DNA of 51,498 nt from positions 1-51,498 of the forward strand of contig JAAYVL010000139.1 of assembly GCA_012517205.1 (NCBI GenBank). The letters are read 5' to 3'. The stretch is from Verrucomicrobiota bacterium. Its GTDB lineage: Bacteria > Verrucomicrobiota > Verrucomicrobiia > Limisphaerales > UBA8199. The position numbers and the translations under genes are program-made. Below the pieces are notes generated by a model. That model made no database searches and had not been told where the DNA came from. It saw only the letters and a list, made by a program, of their open reading frames with translations. Shown one piece after another: positions 22,871 through 32,323 of this stretch (positions are counted from its first letter, which is position 1; each line of letters starts with the position of its first letter).

Positions 22871-23003
22871 GTTTACGGATTTGCTTTCACGCGGCCGCCG
22901 GACCGCAAGGCTTGGGGAAGATGACCCGGGATTGCTTCCAAGCCCGCTCGCGCCGGAGGGATGCTGCTTGTCTTTGCGCCCGTCGCGCCCGGATACTCGC
23001 GCC

Positions 23004-24554
23004 ATGAACCGAAACGCGCCCGTGCTTTCGAATAACCTGGATGCGTTGTTTCTCGAGTCCAGGAAGTGCCAGGCCCGCTATGATTTTGCGGGGGCCATCG
23101 AGGTGCTGCAGCGCGCCCGCAGGCTTGAGCCGGCGAATGACAAGATTCTGGTGGACCTCGGGGCTGCCTGCGCCAAGGCGTATGATTTCGCCGCCGCGCA
23201 GCGCTGGTTCGACGAGGCTATCCGCGTTACGCTCACCCCCGTTCCCGCTCTCAACGCCATCGGCCATGCCTGGCTGGAGGTGCGCAATTACGAAGCCGCG
23301 CAAGCCTGTTTTGAACGGCTATTTAAGGAAAAGCAGGTTCCGGTTGTCGCGTTCATCCGCCTGTCCGAAATCTATATCCGGCGCCGCCGTCTGGCCGATG
23401 CCGACGAAATTACCGGGCGCGCGCTGCACCTTTACGGGCCCTTGGACGCCGTCTTATTAGCGCGCGGCAATGTGCATCGCCAACTGGGGCAGTTTGACCT
23501 GGCGGAAAAGTTATACAATGTTCTCGTGAGCCGCCCCGCGGGCGATCCCCTGGTCCGCGCCTTTGGCTATTACGAGCTGGCCAGCCTTCACGATCATAAA
23601 CGGGAATACGATAAGGCGATGTCCGCTTTGCTGGAGGGCAAGGCGCTTATGCGGCAGGGAGCCGCGCAGCCGTTGAAGATTCTGCGGGAGAAGCAGGCGC
23701 ATCTGAAAGAGATGCAACAGAGCGCCAGTGAGCAGGCGGTACAGCGCTGGCGCAAAGCGGGAACTACGGATCTGCAACCTCCGCGCAAGCTCGCCCTGCT
23801 TTGTGGTCATGCCCGCTCCGGAACCACCCTTTTGGAGTATGTGATTGATGCGCATCCGGGCGTCGTTTCGGCCGAGGAAAGCACGGTCTTTCACAACAAG
23901 GCCTACTACCCGCTTGGCCGGGCGGTCTCCCGGAACGCGACCTTCGTCTCCTCCCTGGACTGGTTTCCCGCCCGCACCATGCGCCAAATCCGCTCCGAGT
24001 ATTTCAACGGGATTGAATCCCTTTTGGGCGAGCCCATCGGCGACCGCCTTCTGCTGGATAAGAATCCAGCGAACACCTTTGATGTGCCCGCCATCGCTCG
24101 CATTTTTCCGGAGAATAAGTTTGTGGCCGCCTTGCGCGATCCCCGGGATGTTTGCCTGAGCTGTTTTATGCAGCCGGTGAACATTCTGCCTGATACCGCC
24201 GCGTGGCTGAGCCTGGAAGAAACGGTGCAACACTACGCAGCCATCATGGGTTTATGGGCCGCCTGGAAACCCTGTCTTGGGGAACTGGCCATCGAAGTTC
24301 GTTACGAAGATTTGGTGGACAACCTGGAAGCCAGCGCCCGGCGGGTGTTGGCATTTTTGGACTTGCCTTGGGATGACCGCGTTGTGCGCTTTCACGAGCA
24401 TGCCAGCAGCAAAGTGGTTCGTTCGCCTACCTTTGCCGAGGTTACCAAGCCGCTTTATCGAGCATCCGTTGGGCGCTGGAGGAACTACCAGAAGTATTTT
24501 GAGCCACATCTGCCCAAACTCGCACCTCTGCTGCGCGCATTCGGCTACGAATAA
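23004..24554 (+). CDS. TPR-sulfotransferase fusion protein
   Basis: A 516-residue protein. Residues 1 to about 250 are tetratricopeptide-like helical repeats (AGAIEVLQRARRLEP-type units). The C-terminal half is a PAPS-dependent sulfotransferase: the 5'-phosphosulfate loop GHARSGTTLLEYV, and the 3'-phosphate motif region LRDPRDVCLSCFMQ, then RYEDLVDNLE and a final VGRWRNYQKYFEP. TPR-sulfotransferase fusions are common in Verrucomicrobiota and Planctomycetota; the acceptor (sugar, protein or lipid) is unknown. The ATG at MNRNAPVL was chosen because the repeat region starts directly after it and the upstream part is non-conserved looking. It precedes the sugar-modifying genes, consistent with sulfation of a glycan. 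Confidence 0.85.
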   Translation: MNRNAPVLSNNLDALFLESRKCQARYDFAGAIEVLQRARRLEPANDKILVDLGAACAKAYDFAAAQRWFDEAIRVTLTPVPALNAIGHAWLEVRNYEAAQACFERLFKEKQVPVVAFIRLSEIYIRRRRLADADEITGRALHLYGPLDAVLLARGNVHRQLGQFDLAEKLYNVLVSRPAGDPLVRAFGYYELASLHDHKREYDKAMSALLEGKALMRQGAAQPLKILREKQAHLKEMQQSASEQAVQRWRKAGTTDLQPPRKLALLCGHARSGTTLLEYVIDAHPGVVSAEESTVFHNKAYYPLGRAVSRNATFVSSLDWFPARTMRQIRSEYFNGIESLLGEPIGDRLLLDKNPANTFDVPAIARIFPENKFVAALRDPRDVCLSCFMQPVNILPDTAAWLSLEETVQHYAAIMGLWAAWKPCLGELAIEVRYEDLVDNLEASARRVLAFLDLPWDDRVVRFHEHASSKVVRSPTFAEVTKPLYRASVGRWRNYQKYFEPHLPKLAPLLRAFGYE

Positions 24555-24844: not shown

Positions 24845-25216
24845 GTGGACGCCAGCAAACATTCTGTCCCGCAGCCCCGAAAGTTTAAGGTGGGCTTTTG
24901 CGAATGTTTCGGGTGCTCTGTTGAGGCCTTCCCAAAGGCGCTCTTAAGAAAGAGCATCCATCCTCCTTTGCGTCCCCTGGCTTGGTTGGTTCGGAGCTTG
25001 TCGCCCAACTATTTCCGCCCGGATTTGGAATATGCGGAGCGAATTGGCGAAACCAGAGACTGGGAGGCATTCTGGACGCTGGCTAATAGCATTCGCAGGG
25101 ACATGATCTTGAATCACGGTCTGTTGCGCGCGGGCCTTCATCTGCGCATTTCGGGGTATCGCTTGATCAAGGTCTATCAGGAGATCACCCGGCACCGGCG
25201 CGAGTCTTTCCTTTAA
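24845..25216 (+). CDS. Unknown 123-residue protein in the glycosyltransferase cluster
   Basis: A small, probably cytoplasmic protein starting with GTG. I do not recognise the family. The sequence is well structured, with no low complexity: GFCECFGCSVEAFPKALLRK (two Cys pairs close together), a Pro-rich turn (HPPLRPLAWLVRSL), then helices containing ERIGETRDWEAFW and HGLLRAGLHLRISGYRL. It is basic overall. It ends 5 bp before the next glycosyltransferase gene, so the two are surely co-transcribed and may work together. TTGCAA-17 bp-TAATCT lies just before the GTG and would give an almost leaderless transcript. Codon use is like that of the neighbours. Confidence 0.7.
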   Translation: MDASKHSVPQPRKFKVGFCECFGCSVEAFPKALLRKSIHPPLRPLAWLVRSLSPNYFRPDLEYAERIGETRDWEAFWTLANSIRRDMILNHGLLRAGLHLRISGYRLIKVYQEITRHRRESFL

Positions 25217-25221
25217 AATCC

Positions 25222-26778
25222 GTGAGACTCGTCATAGTTCATCATCATTTCCGGCCTGGAGGGGTGCGGCGTGTAATTGAATTGGCCACGCCGCATTTGG
25301 TGTCGCACTGGCCGGAAGCGATTCGCACGGTAGTGCTGGCCACGGGCGAGGCTCCGGAAGCTGCCTGGCTGCGCCGTTTCCGCAAAGAACTTCCAGGCGT
25401 GCGCGTTCAGGTCGTCGTGCAGCCATCCTTTGGCTACCGGTCTGAAATGAAGGAAACGGGTTCGGTTTGGAAGCGGCGCGTCGAGGAGGGCATTAGCGCT
25501 CTGGTCCGCCTCTCGATGCGTGAGGATTGCCTGGTCTGGGCGCATAATTTGGGGTTGGGGCGCAATCTGGAACTGGCGCATAAGTTAACGCAGGCATGCC
25601 ATAGCGGGGGCATTCCGCTAGTGGCGCACCATCACGATTGGTGGTTCGAAAACCGGTGGCACCATTTTACCGCAAACCGCAGTCCCGGTTTTCAAACATT
25701 GCCGGCTGTCGCGAATGCGGTGCTGCCTGCCTCCCCGTATATTTATCATGCGGCCATTAACCGCGCCGATGCCGTAGTGCTGCGGCGGCACTTCCACAAC
25801 CAGGCCGATTGGCTACCCAATCCGGTAATGCCGCCCGCGCGAGTGCCCGCCCGGCGCGTTGCCGCTGCCCGTGCCTGGCTTCAGCGTCAACTGAATGACA
25901 AGGCTCCCGTCTGGCTGCTGCCTTGCCGGTTGTTGCGCCGTAAAAACATTGGCGAGGCCTTGCTGCTCACCCGCTGGTTGCGACCCCAGGCATGGTTGGT
26001 CACGACGGGCGACTGCAGTTCGACAGAGGAAACCACTTATGCGCGGACGTTGGCTGACGCCGCGCGCAAAGGCCGCTGGCGGCTGCGGCTTGGAGTTTTG
26101 CGGGATAGAGAAACTACGAGCCCTTCAGTGCCGGAACTGTTGGCCGCCTGCGAAGCGGTAATGTTCACCTCGCTTCAGGAAGGTTTTGGTTTGCCGTATT
26201 TGGAGGCGGTGGCAGCTCGCCGCCCTCTGGTGGCGCGGGAATTGCCGAACATAGCACCGGACCTGGCAGAGTTTGGGTTTGCTTTCCCGCAATCCTATCG
26301 CGAAGTATACGTGGCCCCGGAGCTGTTTGATTGGCGAAGCGAACGGGAACGGCAGGCCCGCAGGTTTGCGCAATGGATTCGTGTGATGCCTGATGCGGCT
26401 GCTCGCCTGGCCGGCAAACCCGCCGTGCTGGCTGGCGGGAAGAAGCCGCGGCCAGTGCCATTCAGCCGACTGACGCTTGCGGCTCAACTCGAGGTATTGG
26501 CTCAACCGATTGAACGGTCGTGGGAGCGTTGCCTGCCACTTAATCCGTTTCTGGAACGGTGGCGCCAGCGGGCGGCCGCCGGGGATTTGGAAACTGCACC
26601 CTGGCCGCCTCGGGCGGAATCCTGGCTCAGCGGGCACGCCTATGCCCAACGATTTCTGTCTCTGGTTTCGCCGCGGCGCGGAGAGGTTCCGGAGCCTGGA
26701 GCTGGCCAGGCGGCGCAAGCTGAATTTTTGCGGCGGAAATTACATGCCGATTATCTTTACCCCCTTTTATGGAGCTAG
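25222..26778 (+). CDS. Glycosyltransferase, GT-B fold (family 4-like)
   Basis: A 518-residue cytoplasmic glycosyltransferase that starts with GTG. The N-terminal strand RLVIVHHHFRPGGVRRVIE is the glycine-rich opening of GT-B enzymes. LVAHHHDWWFENRW is a His-rich acceptor-side loop, and LLPCRLLRRKNIGEALLL is the start of the nucleotide-sugar domain. FTSLQEGFGLPYLEAVAARRPLV carries the E-x7-E donor motif. A C-terminal extension of about 100 residues after the donor domain is unusual. It follows the 123-residue protein by 5 bp and overlaps the HAD hydrolase gene by 10 bp. The His-rich loop is shared with the glycosyltransferase two genes downstream (VIAHHHDFAWERE), so the two probably use related acceptors. 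Confidence 0.85.
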   Translation: MRLVIVHHHFRPGGVRRVIELATPHLVSHWPEAIRTVVLATGEAPEAAWLRRFRKELPGVRVQVVVQPSFGYRSEMKETGSVWKRRVEEGISALVRLSMREDCLVWAHNLGLGRNLELAHKLTQACHSGGIPLVAHHHDWWFENRWHHFTANRSPGFQTLPAVANAVLPASPYIYHAAINRADAVVLRRHFHNQADWLPNPVMPPARVPARRVAAARAWLQRQLNDKAPVWLLPCRLLRRKNIGEALLLTRWLRPQAWLVTTGDCSSTEETTYARTLADAARKGRWRLRLGVLRDRETTSPSVPELLAACEAVMFTSLQEGFGLPYLEAVAARRPLVARELPNIAPDLAEFGFAFPQSYREVYVAPELFDWRSERERQARRFAQWIRVMPDAAARLAGKPAVLAGGKKPRPVPFSRLTLAAQLEVLAQPIERSWERCLPLNPFLERWRQRAAAGDLETAPWPPRAESWLSGHAYAQRFLSLVSPRRGEVPEPGAGQAAQAEFLRRKLHADYLYPLLWS

Positions 26779-27509
26779 CAGATGTGAATGTGCGCGCGGT
26801 TATTTTCGATGTTTATGGCACCCTTTTGGAGATCGGCCCGCCGCCGGTGGATGCCGATGCGCGTTGGCAGCAGCTATTTCAAGAGATGCTGCACGCCCCT
26901 CCTTTGTTGAGCCGCCTGGATTTCTATGTGGCCAGCAACAAACTCGTGGCCAAACGCCATGAAGCCAGCCGGGCGCGCGGCATAGCCTGGCCGGAGGTGC
27001 AGTGGCCTGCGGTGGTCGCGGAAGTACTGCCGCCCTTGCGCCGGCTGCCGCGGGCGAAACTGGACGAATTTCTCTATCGTCAAATCCAGATAGGCCACAC
27101 TCCACTCCTGAGTGATGCTACGGTAGCGGCCTTACGCAAACTCAAGGCGAGCGGCTGCCTGTTCGGCATAGCTTCGAATGCCCAGGCATACACACTGCGC
27201 GAATTGGAAGAGGCCCTGGTTCGCCATGGGCTTGGGATGGACCTGTTCGAGCGCGACCTTTGCTTCTGGTCGTTCGAGCATGGCTTTAGCAAACCAGACC
27301 CGCATGTGTTCCAGATTCTCAGCACCCGGCTGGAGGCGCGGGGCATTTCCCGGGCCGAGGCGCTTATGGTTGGCGATCGCCTCGATAACGACTGTGAGCC
27401 GGCTCGCGCCTTTGGCTGGCAGACGTGGCTATTGAAACCGAAAGGCGACAGCCGCATTCCAAGAAGCGGAAACTGGCAGGATCTGCTGCATCAGCTCGCC
27501 ATAAAATAA
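26769..27509 (+). CDS. HAD-superfamily hydrolase
   Basis: A 246-residue haloacid-dehalogenase-type hydrolase. Motif I is VIFDVYGTLLE, motif II GIASNAQ, and the motif III/IV region is SKPDPHVFQ with MVGDRLDNDCEPA. The second Asp of motif I (DxD) is replaced by Tyr, which is the usual pattern for L-2-haloacid dehalogenases but is also found in some phosphatases. An L-2-haloacid dehalogenase role makes little sense here. In context it could be the phosphatase that dephosphorylates glucosyl-3-phosphoglycerate. It overlaps the preceding glycosyltransferase, which indicates a shared operon. The substrate is unproven. Confidence 0.82.
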   Translation: MELADVNVRAVIFDVYGTLLEIGPPPVDADARWQQLFQEMLHAPPLLSRLDFYVASNKLVAKRHEASRARGIAWPEVQWPAVVAEVLPPLRRLPRAKLDEFLYRQIQIGHTPLLSDATVAALRKLKASGCLFGIASNAQAYTLRELEEALVRHGLGMDLFERDLCFWSFEHGFSKPDPHVFQILSTRLEARGISRAEALMVGDRLDNDCEPARAFGWQTWLLKPKGDSRIPRSGNWQDLLHQLAIK

Positions 27510-27621
27510 ATCAGGCCGACTTGACGGAACCGGCTATTTGCCGTCGGAAATACGGTAACTATTCCGCGCCGGAGCTTTGCGTCAGGCTTGAAGTTCCGAG
27601 TAGTGGCGGTAGCATCGACTA

Positions 27622-28911
27622 ATGTCATTCTGCATACTTACGACGGGCGCGCCTAAACGCATCGGCTTCATCTCCACACGGTTTCATGGTACGGACGGTG
27701 TCACGCTCGAAACGCGAAAATGGGCGCAGATTCTGACCGGGATGGGGCACTCCTGTTTTTGGATGGCGGGATTGCTCGATGCCCCGCCGGAGGCGAGCCA
27801 TGTTGCACCGCTGGCCTTCTTTGGCCATCCGGAGGTTGCCGAAGTGCAGAGCAGGCTTTTTGGCGTGGCGTTTCGAAGCCGGGCTGTCACCAATCAAATC
27901 CAATCCATTAAAGAACGGCTGAAGGATGAGCTTTATCGCTTCATAGAGAAGTTCCAGATTGAAATCCTTCTGCCGGAAAACATTCTGGCTATCCCGATGC
28001 ACGTGCCGCTAGGGCTGGCCATGACCGAGGTAACGGCCGAGACCACCTTGCCCGTCATCGCCCATCATCACGATTTTGCCTGGGAGCGCGAGCGCTTCAC
28101 GTTGAATGCCGTTAGCGATTATCTGCAAGCTGCCTTCCCGCCGCTATTCTACAAAATGGAGCACGTGGTGATCAACTCGATGCAGCAAAAAGAACTGGCC
28201 CGGCGGCTCGGCATTCCTTCGCAAATCATCCCGAATGTGTTGGACTTCGAAACGCCCCCTCCGGGTGTTGATGACTATAGCCGGGATCTTCGCCGTGAGA
28301 TCGGCTTGGAAGAGAGCGATTGGTTTATTCTGCAGCCCACGCGTGTGGTTCAGCGCAAAGGCATCGAGCATGCCATCGAACTGGTGCGCCGCCTTAATAA
28401 TTCGCGGGCCAAGCTCGTCATCTCGCACCCCGCAGGCGATGAAGGGAACGCTTACATGGCCATGCTCAAAGACCGTATTGCCGATGCCGGCATTGACGTG
28501 CGGTTCATTTTCGATCGGGTAGGCGAAACCCGCGGCACCACTCCGGAGGGAAAGAAGATTTACACCCTGGCCGATGTCTATCCGCACGCGGACCTGATTA
28601 CCTACCCCAGTCATTATGAAGGATTCGGCAACGCCTTTTTGGAGGCGGTTTATTTTAGCAAGCCGGTAGTCGTAAACACTTACGCCGTGTATGCGCGCGA
28701 TATTGATCCGCTGGGGTTTAAAACCATCGAGATGCCACAGTTGGTGACCCGGGAGGTGGTCGAACAAGCCCGGGCCGTCTTGGAGGACCAGGCGCTGGCG
28801 GCAGAGTGGGCGCGCACCAACTACGCTCTGGGCGTGAAATACTTCTCTTATTCTGTGGCGCGGCGCAAACTGGCTGCCCGCATTTCCAACCTGTTTGGAG
28901 AAGGAGTTTAG
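27622..28911 (+). CDS. Glycosyltransferase family 4, candidate mannosylglucosyl-(phospho)glycerate synthase
   Basis: A 429-residue GT-B enzyme. KRIGFISTRFHGTDGVTLET is the N-terminal donor/acceptor loop, PVIAHHHDFAWERERF an acceptor-side His-rich segment, and LQPTRVVQRKGIEHAIELV begins the second domain. TYPSHYEGFGNAFLEAVYF holds the E-x7-E retaining-GT4 motif. Its STRF.GTDGV start reminds me of mannosylglucosyl-3-phosphoglycerate synthases and mannosylglucosylglycerate synthases, and the location beside GpgS and a GH13_18 phosphorylase fits. That assignment is inference from memory and context. It converges on the phosphorylase gene with only 9 bp between stops. Confidence 0.82.
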   Translation: MSFCILTTGAPKRIGFISTRFHGTDGVTLETRKWAQILTGMGHSCFWMAGLLDAPPEASHVAPLAFFGHPEVAEVQSRLFGVAFRSRAVTNQIQSIKERLKDELYRFIEKFQIEILLPENILAIPMHVPLGLAMTEVTAETTLPVIAHHHDFAWERERFTLNAVSDYLQAAFPPLFYKMEHVVINSMQQKELARRLGIPSQIIPNVLDFETPPPGVDDYSRDLRREIGLEESDWFILQPTRVVQRKGIEHAIELVRRLNNSRAKLVISHPAGDEGNAYMAMLKDRIADAGIDVRFIFDRVGETRGTTPEGKKIYTLADVYPHADLITYPSHYEGFGNAFLEAVYFSKPVVVNTYAVYARDIDPLGFKTIEMPQLVTREVVEQARAVLEDQALAAEWARTNYALGVKYFSYSVARRKLAARISNLFGEGV

Positions 28912-28920
28912 CGGGCGCGA

Positions 28921-30645
28921 TTATTTGTCTTCCGCGCGCAGCCAAAGGGTCTGGTATCCCTTGAGCCGTACGTTTGCCGGCTGATAGCGGTCGCCGGAGA
29001 TCAGTTCAGTCCAGAAAGGGGCGCACTCAGCCGCTTGCACCAGGCGAGAGGCGGAAACCGTTTGGCTGGTAACGTTGTGCAAACACAGCAACCGTTGACG
29101 GCCATCGAGCGAAGCCCGATACACGGCAAACAAACGCCGATCGCCCGCCAGCACCCGCTGCGCCGCCTGGGGGTGAAATGCGCGGTGTTGGCGGCGAATA
29201 CGCAGCAGCTTGTTCAATCCGCCAAAAACGCAGGCTCGCAGGGAGCCTGCTTCGGCCAACTCGCTTTCCAATTGCGCGCGAGCCAACTTCTCGCGGTTGA
29301 TGCGCCGTTTCAAGCCGCTGGTTTCCGCGCCGGCCCGGTCGCCCCGTGAACCCAGAAGCGAGTGGAAATAAATGCCCGGCACTCCTTGCAGGCTGAGCAG
29401 AATGGCATGCGCCGTGAGAAACTTGCGGGCGGCCAATTCGGCAGGTTCACCTCGCCGCGGGTTCGACAGGGCATCGAGATAATTAATATTCAACTCGTAA
29501 GGAACCTGCGTGTGGTCCGGCAACTCCTTGAATGAAAGGAAGCCGCCGTGCGCCAGGGCGCGGCGTGCCAGTGCCTCAATTTCTGCCTTGGCGAGGATGC
29601 CTTGCGCCGGATTCAGGCCGATGCCGTCGTGCGAGGCCAGGAAGTTGAAGAACGCCACCCGGTCCGACGGCAATGTTAATGACTGCGCCCAGCGAGTCAG
29701 TTTCACCGCGTTGCCGGTGGCGAAACTATGCAGCACCAGCGGCGGCAGAGCGAAGTTATAGACCAACTGAGCTTCGTTGGCGCCGTTTCCAAAGTAAGAA
29801 ACATTTTCAGCGTGCGGCACGTTGGTTTCGGTGATGAGTCGCACATGCGGAGCCGCTTTATCCAATACCGCACGCATAAGCTGGACGATTGCGTGTGTTT
29901 GCGGCAGGTGCAGGCAAGTTGTTCCGATTTCCTTCCAGAGAAAAGCGATGGCATCCAGCCGGATGAACCGCGCCCCGCGTGCCGCGTAAAACAGCAGCAC
30001 TTCCAATACGGCCAGCAGTACGCGGGGATTCCGGTAATCCAGATCCACCTGGTCGGCGCTGAAAGTCGTCCATAACCGGCGCCGCCCGCGCGCAGTGGGA
30101 AATTCCGTAAGTAACGGCAGGGTGCGTGGGCGCACGACCTGCGACAAGTCCGGCTGTCCCTTGACCGTTATAAAGAAATCCCGGAATTGAGGATCATCGC
30201 GCTGAAAACGGCGGAACCATTCCCCTTGCGCCGAAAGGTGATTAACGACAGCGTCGAACATCAAATCAAACGACTGCCCAAGGCGCGCCACGTCATTCCA
30301 CGAGCCGAATGCCGGGTCCACCGCGAAGTAGTCTTTTACAGCAAATCCATCATCTGATGACGCGGGATAAAAAGGCAGGATATGCACGCCGCTAATCAAA
30401 CCTTGCAAATGTGATTTGCAGAAACGAGCCAGCGTCCGCAGCGGCGCCTCCCCGGGTTCTCGCAATTGGTCAGCATAGGTGATGAGCAGGATATCGTGCT
30501 CGGCGAGTGGCTTTACCGTGCGGCGGAATCTGCCGAGCGTCTGTCGCGGCCAGGATTTTAGCAGTACGGACAGTTGCCGCATGGAAGCAGCGGCGCCCTC
30601 CCGTCCATAGAGGAAATCCAGATACTGGCGGAACTGTGAAGTCAT
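28921..30645 (-). CDS. GH13_18 glycoside phosphorylase, probably glucosylglycerate phosphorylase
   Basis: A 574-residue alpha-amylase-superfamily enzyme of the sucrose phosphorylase type. The family signatures are GVHILPFYPASSDDGFAV and MFDAVVNHLSAQGEWF. The catalytic triad is visible: nucleophile D231 in RFIRLDAIAF, acid/base E273 in LITETNVPH, and D340 in FLASHDGIGL. Members of subfamily 18 include sucrose, glucosylglycerol and glucosylglycerate phosphorylases, which release glucose-1-phosphate. Since the gene directly upstream on the same strand is a glucosyl-3-phosphoglycerate synthase (84-bp gap), glucosylglycerate is the most likely substrate. It would let the cell recover glucose-1-phosphate and glycerate when the solute is no longer needed. 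Confidence 0.87.
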   Translation of the reverse strand: MTSQFRQYLDFLYGREGAAASMRQLSVLLKSWPRQTLGRFRRTVKPLAEHDILLITYADQLREPGEAPLRTLARFCKSHLQGLISGVHILPFYPASSDDGFAVKDYFAVDPAFGSWNDVARLGQSFDLMFDAVVNHLSAQGEWFRRFQRDDPQFRDFFITVKGQPDLSQVVRPRTLPLLTEFPTARGRRRLWTTFSADQVDLDYRNPRVLLAVLEVLLFYAARGARFIRLDAIAFLWKEIGTTCLHLPQTHAIVQLMRAVLDKAAPHVRLITETNVPHAENVSYFGNGANEAQLVYNFALPPLVLHSFATGNAVKLTRWAQSLTLPSDRVAFFNFLASHDGIGLNPAQGILAKAEIEALARRALAHGGFLSFKELPDHTQVPYELNINYLDALSNPRRGEPAELAARKFLTAHAILLSLQGVPGIYFHSLLGSRGDRAGAETSGLKRRINREKLARAQLESELAEAGSLRACVFGGLNKLLRIRRQHRAFHPQAAQRVLAGDRRLFAVYRASLDGRQRLLCLHNVTSQTVSASRLVQAAECAPFWTELISGDRYQPANVRLKGYQTLWLRAEDK

Positions 30646-30729
30646 GCGCTACGGCTTACCCAAAATGCCGGCAGGTGCGCGCTGGTTTGCCGCTGCCAGT
30701 TGAACGGTCGAGCATCATAATGCCGCCAT

Positions 30730-31944
30730 TCAATGCGTATTATCCAGCCGAACCGCAGCGTTCAACCCATCAAAGAACCTGGGCAGGGCGGATTGCACGC
30801 GGTTCCAGTTGGGAATCAGCGGAGTCGACAGCGGGTCCTCCAGGAAAGCCTTTTCCGCAATTTGGATGCTGCGCACGAATGTGGCCACCGCTTTTTCCTC
30901 CTCATGCCGCGGAAACGACAAGCCATTGACGGCGGCATCGGCGCCATAGAATCGAAGCGAGTCTTCGGCCTGGCGCAAGTAGGCGCTCAAAAGGGTGTCA
31001 AACAACCCCACATCCAGTTTGATGCCTTCGGCGGCCATCCGGCGGAAGAAAGATTTGGTGATATCCACCGCCATCTTGTTAAGCCCCTTGGCGGTGTCGC
31101 GCGGCGAAAGCTCCTGATGTTTGTGGTCGTAATTTTCGCATAATTCCGACTGGCAAATCGCGCGGGGCGCGGCGTTGCGAAACACCTCGGCCAGGGTGCC
31201 CACCTCCACCGCCCAATCGTAGGGAATGCGCACGCGCCGGACCAGGTCGGTATGGATTGAGAACTCACCGGCCAGCGGATAGCGGAAGGTATCCATATAG
31301 ACCAGGTAGGGATGCTGGCCGATAATGCTTTTGAGCGCCCGCAGAAGCGGCGTGACCAGCAGGCGCATCACGCGGCCATTCAACTGGTGAGTGACGCGGG
31401 CGTAATAGCCTTTGCAGAAATCAAAGCCCAGGCTGGGGTGCGCCACCGGGTAAGTTAGCCGGGCCAGCAACTCCCGGCTGTAGGTCAGGATATCGCAATC
31501 ATGCACCACGACCACGCGCGCCTGTTCGCTGGCCAGCACATAGCCGAAGCAGATCCAAATATTGCGCCCTTTGCCGCCCGGCCCGGCGCTCAACTCGGCT
31601 TCCTCAAGTTTTTGGAATAGCGCTGACAGCCGAGGCCCGTCGTTCCACAATAACATCGGGCGTTGCGGCAACTGGGCGAAGAATTTGCAGGCTCGCTGGA
31701 AATCAGCCGCGCGGGTCGCGCCATCGATGCCCACCACAATTTGCTTGAGGTAGGAAACGTTCTTGAGTTCGCGGACAATCCGCGCCAACGCGCGCGTGCC
31801 GAGTTCTTTGATGTGGCACGGCAATACCAACGTAATCGGCGATTCGGCTGCAAATCGCTCCAACTCATGCTCGAGCCGGGCAACGTCGGGGCGCCCCAGC
31901 CGATGCAGGGTGGCGATGGCGCCGGTTTGAAAAAAGTCAGGCAT
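30730..31944 (-). CDS. gpgS: Glucosyl-3-phosphoglycerate synthase (GT81)
   Basis: A 404-residue GT-A glycosyltransferase that joins glucose from a nucleotide donor to 3-phosphoglycerate, the committed step to glucosylglycerate. Family landmarks are ITLVLPCHIKELGTRAL (donor-binding strand), GKGRNIWICFGYVLA, the metal-binding DxD in VVVHDCDILTYSRELLARL, GYYARVTHQLNGRV, and QHPYLVYMDTFRYPLAGEF. WAVEVGTLAEVF and YDHKHQELS complete the usual order. Length is normal. It heads a two-gene minus-strand unit with the GH13_18 phosphorylase. Confidence in the enzyme family is good; donor preference (ADP- or UDP-glucose) is not visible. Glucosylglycerate is an osmolyte and a nitrogen-limitation solute in several bacteria. 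Confidence 0.88.
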   Translation of the reverse strand: MPDFFQTGAIATLHRLGRPDVARLEHELERFAAESPITLVLPCHIKELGTRALARIVRELKNVSYLKQIVVGIDGATRAADFQRACKFFAQLPQRPMLLWNDGPRLSALFQKLEEAELSAGPGGKGRNIWICFGYVLASEQARVVVVHDCDILTYSRELLARLTYPVAHPSLGFDFCKGYYARVTHQLNGRVMRLLVTPLLRALKSIIGQHPYLVYMDTFRYPLAGEFSIHTDLVRRVRIPYDWAVEVGTLAEVFRNAAPRAICQSELCENYDHKHQELSPRDTAKGLNKMAVDITKSFFRRMAAEGIKLDVGLFDTLLSAYLRQAEDSLRFYGADAAVNGLSFPRHEEEKAVATFVRSIQIAEKAFLEDPLSTPLIPNWNRVQSALPRFFDGLNAAVRLDNTH

Positions 31945-32125
31945 GGTTGTTTGCGTTTTGCGTCTCTGCCGCGGGCGCGCGCTGTTTGCGGCCGCATCGG
32001 CGTCGAGTCGTCTGATTATCCCGATGGCGGCCCGACCATTCGGACTTATCCTCCGACGGCACCCACCGTCGGACCCTTGCGCTCAAAGTCAACGCTTATG
32101 CGTTTGCGTTAGGAGCCTGATAACT

Positions 32126-32323
32126 ATGCCGCTGAATGGCCAAAGCCGTCAAGGCCGCGTTATTATCAATTTTTTTGAGGAGGCGGTTCGTCGGGGATTA
32201 GCATCGCACGAGGAGTATTCTGAGCCCGCCAATCTCATCTCGTTCTTGCCGGAGTCTTTTCGCCGTAAGACCACACGCAGGCGCTTCCGAAAGAGACTTT
32301 GGGCTTTGGACTTTGGATTATAG
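32126..32323 (+). CDS. Possible small basic protein
   Basis: A 65-codon frame from an ATG with AGGAG ten bases upstream, a better ribosome-binding site than most genes here have. The product starts MPLNGQSRQGRVIINFFEEA and ends with an Arg-rich tail (RRKTTRRRFRKRLWAL). It finishes 17 bp before the DUF554 gene, so it could be co-transcribed. I do not recognise it, and it may be a chance frame; the rest of the 396-bp gap upstream shows no other gene. Confidence 0.35.
   Translation: MPLNGQSRQGRVIINFFEEAVRRGLASHEEYSEPANLISFLPESFRRKTTRRRFRKRLWALDFGL

Follow-up and report, generated by a model that had tools for sequence, protein, structure and literature searches.

Background

In Petrotoga and Rhodopirellula baltica, the mannosylglucosylglycerate pathway comprises the enzymes GpgS, MggA, MggB and MggS, while Methanococcoides and mycobacteria rely on the two-step GpgS/GpgP route. 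Mannosylglucosylglycerate itself is known from Petrotoga and Rhodopirellula (PMC3694870), and roles have been assigned to the Lys, DxD, Glu and His residues of GpgS (PMC2581804). Passages of PMC7178133 devoted to glucosylglycerate phosphorylase (GGaP) describe this enzyme as the sole known glucosylglycerate sink in many producers, with its in vivo role unconfirmed, and report GGaP genes beside those for GpgS, a phosphatase and a glycerate kinase; a neighbourhood that makes and recycles glucosylglycerate is therefore already known. The same passages separate GGaP from sucrose phosphorylases by a (T/S)ETN motif at the tip of beta-strand 5 and by a Glu that replaces Gln in loop A.

Here we describe a related locus in a 51,498-nucleotide stretch of DNA (the window) from a 3.6-Mb draft genome of 93% completeness, whose closest named relatives fall among Verrucomicrobiota of the Limisphaerales/Pedosphaerales type. 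We consider it fairly probable that the genes of this locus serve to build, extend and recycle a compatible solute of the glucosylglycerate type.

Results

Layout of the locus

The six open reading frames listed in a first-pass annotation of the window were all recovered where it had placed them. Four lie on the forward strand, encoding a 123-aa protein (24845–25216), a 518-aa GT4 glycosyltransferase with a C-terminal extension, linked to GpgS (GT_A, the second GT4 protein of that annotation; 25222–26778), a 246-aa HAD-IA (REG-2-like) hydrolase that is a candidate phosphatase (26769–27509) and a 429-aa GT4 glycosyltransferase of an MggS-related family (GT_B, 27622–28911). On the reverse strand are ggaP, for a GH13_18 phosphorylase of 574 aa (28921–30645), and gpgS, for a predicted glucosyl-3-phosphoglycerate synthase of the Methanococcoides type (404 aa, 30730–31944). 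Strands and the 84-bp gap between gpgS and ggaP agree with the proposal that these two genes form one unit and converge with the other four. The genes for GT_A and the HAD protein share 10 bp, and 9 bp separate the end of GT_B from the ggaP stop codon. Since the five enzyme genes have clear homologues and keep their catalytic residues across many genomes, the locus is not a product of chance.

The 123-aa protein had no match in Pfam or NCBIfam, and codon usage gave weak support to its reading frame. Its relatives, found in 26 of 97 genomes of the order with up to five copies each and on contigs other than that of gpgS, form a dispersed multicopy family for which Pfam holds no model. The protein, initially counted as part of the system, was rejected on these grounds and is probably unrelated to it. 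A further reading frame at 31943–32323 was discarded as a gene (no family match, negative codon score). Upstream of the locus, positions 22881–24554 encode a TPR and sulfotransferase (PF13469) protein.

Synthase and phosphorylase

The model for Methanococcoides-type GpgS (NF040724) matched the locus GpgS over its full length (residues 5–402) with 323.7 bits, the equivalog cut-off of 700 bits not being reached; judged from its sequence, the protein is a close relative rather than a member of that equivalog and probably works like GpgS. A profile of 17 homologues retrieved solved mycobacterial GpgS chains (7p5l and 4y6n, E values of ~1e-7 to 1e-8), and also a solved mannosyl-3-phosphoglycerate synthase. 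Residues K125, D149/D151, R191, G226-E227, E247 and H274 were invariant among the 17 homologues, and the DxD motif, the Lys-Asp-Glu ion network, the acceptor-site GR and the metal His were conserved and aligned with those of solved GpgS. GpgS is the best-supported reading of the 404-aa synthase, with its specificity a prediction.

The GH13_18 protein was 45% identical to Escherichia coli YcjM, annotated in strain K-12 as glucosylglycerate phosphorylase. Both TETN and the loop-A Glu were present in all 45 GGaP-side proteins (the locus GGaP, YcjM and 43 relatives), loop A reading PYELN in the locus protein and PYEIN in YcjM, compared with YQ in the sucrose/glucosylglycerol phosphorylase references. 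A maximum-likelihood tree of 50 proteins separated the same 45 from five references with 100/100 support, these references being sucrose/glucosylglycerol phosphorylase fragments taken from alignments, with no SPP or XpGP reference among them. On the identity to YcjM, the two motifs and the tree split, the protein is assigned as a glucosylglycerate phosphorylase and not a sucrose phosphorylase. A firm placement among sucrose phosphorylases, named beforehand as the outcome that would count against the proposal, is contradicted by the split, TETN and the loop-A Glu. Together with the profile and residue evidence for GpgS, this bears out the suggestion that glucosylglycerate synthesis and phosphorolysis are encoded in one transcription unit.

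Glycosyltransferases and the HAD protein

GT_A and GT_B were profile homologues (hhalign probability 99.7) and both GT4 proteins had a His-rich loop (AHHHDF and AHHHDWWF), as the first-pass annotation had recognised; the C-terminal extension of GT_A, which it had called unique, is shared by ten close relatives. An AlphaFold2 model of GT_A (pLDDT 92.1) adopted a GT-B fold with HepE, GlgM and WaaG as nearest folds. Such likeness in a model does not fix the substrate, and the donor and acceptor of GT_A proposed below are presumed ones.

NF041101 (MggS) was the only named family to match GT_B over its full length, with 208.2 bits and a cut-off of 640 that was not reached; Thermotoga maritima was among the control genomes matching the same model. 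By this comparison, GT_B is MggS-like, a distant sister and not a member of MggS, so that the earlier comparison to mannosylglucosylglycerate-type synthases stands, though at a score far below the cut-off.

The HAD protein matched PF00702 (64 bits) and, below cut-off, TIGR02252 (57.6 bits). Being of the HAD-IA type, it gave no match to TIGR01486, the HAD-IIB model of MPGP/GpgP phosphatases. Its motif I reads DVYGT and thus lacks the second Asp of DxDxT, so that the protein departs by motif from standard phosphatases. Among 29 relatives in which the motif could be read, 28 likewise have Tyr in place of this Asp (DxY), a feature typical of haloacid dehalogenases. Fold comparison returned both dehalogenases and phosphatases and did not separate the two.

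No MPGP phosphatase above cut-off was present in the source genome (at 93% completeness). MPGP-family phosphatases occurred in 10 genomes, seven with a GpgS-GGaP fusion (see below) and three others, and in none of the 47 genomes with GT_A; within GpgS genomes, the exclusion between GT_A and MPGP had p = 2e-4, uncorrected for shared ancestry. Because MPGP is absent from the source genome and from all 47 GT_A genomes, context favours the HAD protein as a putative substitute for the missing phosphatase. The idea that it fills this role thus gains from MPGP absence and from its pairing with GT_A in relatives, and loses from the atypical motif I (DxYGT).

Recurrence of the gene set in other genomes

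Across 236 genomes of the class, GT_A was present in 47, each with a GpgS match (32 within 2 kb), and GT_B in 27, again all with GpgS, while 30 of the 34 genomes with GGaP had GpgS. As the 236 genomes are related, Fisher values overstate their independence. Gene neighbourhoods of relatives, located by tblastn, revealed synteny of the pathway genes in many families and phyla, with relatives of GT_B adjoining GpgS and/or GGaP in several phyla; some genomes carried GT_B and GGaP at a distance from GpgS. Weaker GpgS matches (20–50 bits) were as expected from the other, GT81-like type, which the family model confirmed in one cluster only (L147; PRK13915, 388.6 bits, cut-off 262). That cluster contains GpgS, GT_A, HAD, an M20 hydrolase, GT_B and GGaP. 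That these partners stay the same while the synthase family switches speaks well for placing GT_A, HAD and GT_B in the GpgS pathway. New here is that the cassette recurs in further phyla, where another family supplies GpgS.

At locus L131, GGaP and GT_B adjoin a glycerate 2-kinase. The source genome has a GlxK-type glycerate kinase (PF02595, 343 bits) away from the locus, and a MOFRL-type kinase was not found in it.

Several neighbourhoods held further features. An M20/M28-type hydrolase lies directly beside GT81-type GpgS in Puniceicoccaceae, Kiritimatiellota, Spirochaetota and Desulfobacterales (L147:7657-8823, L161:2367-3521, L159:2363-3535, L162:2342-3511), its Pfam assignment coming from L147 only. 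GpgS of Bellilinea (Chloroflexota; L163:355-2190) has an N-terminal extension of ~280 aa that by eye resembles universal-stress-protein domains. In six loci (L068, L069, L070, L071, L073 and L074), GpgS homologues of 35–39% identity stand beside a PssA-like CDP-alcohol phosphatidyltransferase, called by motif and seen in three of the six; these homologues may have another function. The GpgS frame of genome G056 (L041:9322-10527) has an in-frame TAG near the C terminus, reflecting either sequencing error or truncation.

GpgS and GGaP were joined in a single reading frame of 988–995 aa in eight genomes (L053, L056 and L058–L063). In the members that were aligned, catalytic positions are conserved in the GpgS half as well as in the GGaP half, and in seven of the eight genomes an MPGP-type phosphatase gene lies directly beside the fusion. 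The portions of the review literature on these enzymes that were covered, short of a full literature search, make no mention of such a fusion, which is new here.

Discussion

The sequences show which genes encode GpgS and GGaP, and that all five enzyme genes are linked. The pathway that we propose goes further, with presumed substrates for GT_A, GT_B and the HAD protein, a presumed direction of flux and a presumed role, if any, in stress. GpgS would join NDP-glucose and 3-phosphoglycerate into glucosyl-3-phosphoglycerate (GPG). Most likely, GT_A would then add a second sugar to GPG and the HAD protein would remove the phosphate, in the manner of MggA and MggB; plain dephosphorylation of GPG is an alternative for the HAD step. 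Free glucosylglycerate would be the acceptor of GT_B, with mannose as the probable sugar. Once the solute is unneeded, GGaP would convert glucosylglycerate and phosphate to glucose-1-phosphate and glycerate, and the glycerate kinase encoded elsewhere in the genome would return the latter to glycolysis. The final solute is perhaps mannosylglucosylglycerate: a novel compound, as the first-pass annotation suggested, is possible, and a known one such as this is at least as likely. It is a tentative and rather doubtful extension of the proposal that GT_A and the DxYGT-type HAD protein constitute an undescribed route in several phyla, in which GPG is extended and then dephosphorylated to a new glycosyl-glucosylglycerate solute, and that the fusion both makes and breaks the solute.

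Other readings of the locus have to be weighed against this pathway. A sucrose phosphorylase identity for the GH13_18 protein, with the locus serving unrelated sugar metabolism, is highly improbable: its best NCBIfam match is indeed the sucrose phosphorylase model TIGR03852 and its nearest PDB chains are named sucrose phosphorylase, but the score of 199 bits falls below the cut-off of 334, as does that of the true GGaP YcjM (221 bits), and this identity is contradicted by the resemblance to YcjM, by motifs that are not those of sucrose phosphorylases and by the tree. We also think it unlikely that GT_B makes glucosylglycerate in one step or acts on GPG instead of making mannosylglucosylglycerate, which would give two parallel routes to one product. 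Its score far below the MggS cut-off would fit, as would loci L131 and L122, where GT_B and GGaP stand beside central carbon genes with neither GT_A nor GpgS nearby; against this, MggS is its sole named full-length match, T. maritima matches that model, and the genomes of all 10 such loci tested had GpgS matches, one of them weak.

Mycobacterial methylglucose lipopolysaccharide is a longer glycan of the kind primed by glucosylglycerate. Such a role of glucosylglycerate is known in mycobacteria (PMC4555173), and the modelled structure of GT_A is similar to those of GT4/GT5 enzymes, GlgM among them, so that one could envisage a plain glucosylglycerate cycle with the HAD protein as GPG phosphatase, GGaP as sink and the two GT4 proteins building a longer glycan, and not a small solute, on glucosylglycerate as primer. 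We regard this arrangement too as improbable, since no branching enzyme, methyltransferase or acyltransferase recurred among the commonest neighbour clusters of relatives, the only ones annotated, and linkage to GGaP suggests turnover of a free small solute.

The link between GpgS, GT_A and HAD points to enzymes that may produce glucosylglycerate derivatives in Verrucomicrobiota, solutes for which our literature search found no describing paper in this phylum. The fusion links GGaP to synthesis within the same cell, and offers a single protein for asking if solute levels are controlled by the phosphorylase.

Compared with known GGaP (EC 2.4.1.352; Meiothermus, Spirochaeta and E. coli YcjM), the locus enzyme shares the GH13_18 family, TETN and the loop-A Glu, as well as the genomic association with GpgS and a glycerate kinase reported in passages of PMC7178133; unlike them, it stands with two GT4 glycosyltransferases, and in some relatives it is fused to GpgS. 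With the GpgS/GpgP systems of Methanococcoides and mycobacteria the locus has in common a GpgS with DxD, GKG and GR motifs, whereas it lacks an MPGP-type phosphatase and has instead an atypical HAD protein paired with GT_A. The mannosylglucosylglycerate pathway likewise combines GpgS, an MggS-like GT4 enzyme, a second glycosyltransferase and a phosphatase candidate; however, GT_B is related to MggS only as a distant sister, the locus has GGaP as an additional component acting as a sink, and the likeness of GT_A and the HAD protein to MggA and MggB is one of presumed enzyme steps. What sets the present gene set apart from these systems is the GT_A-HAD module, its mutual exclusion with MPGP and the GpgS-GGaP fusion.
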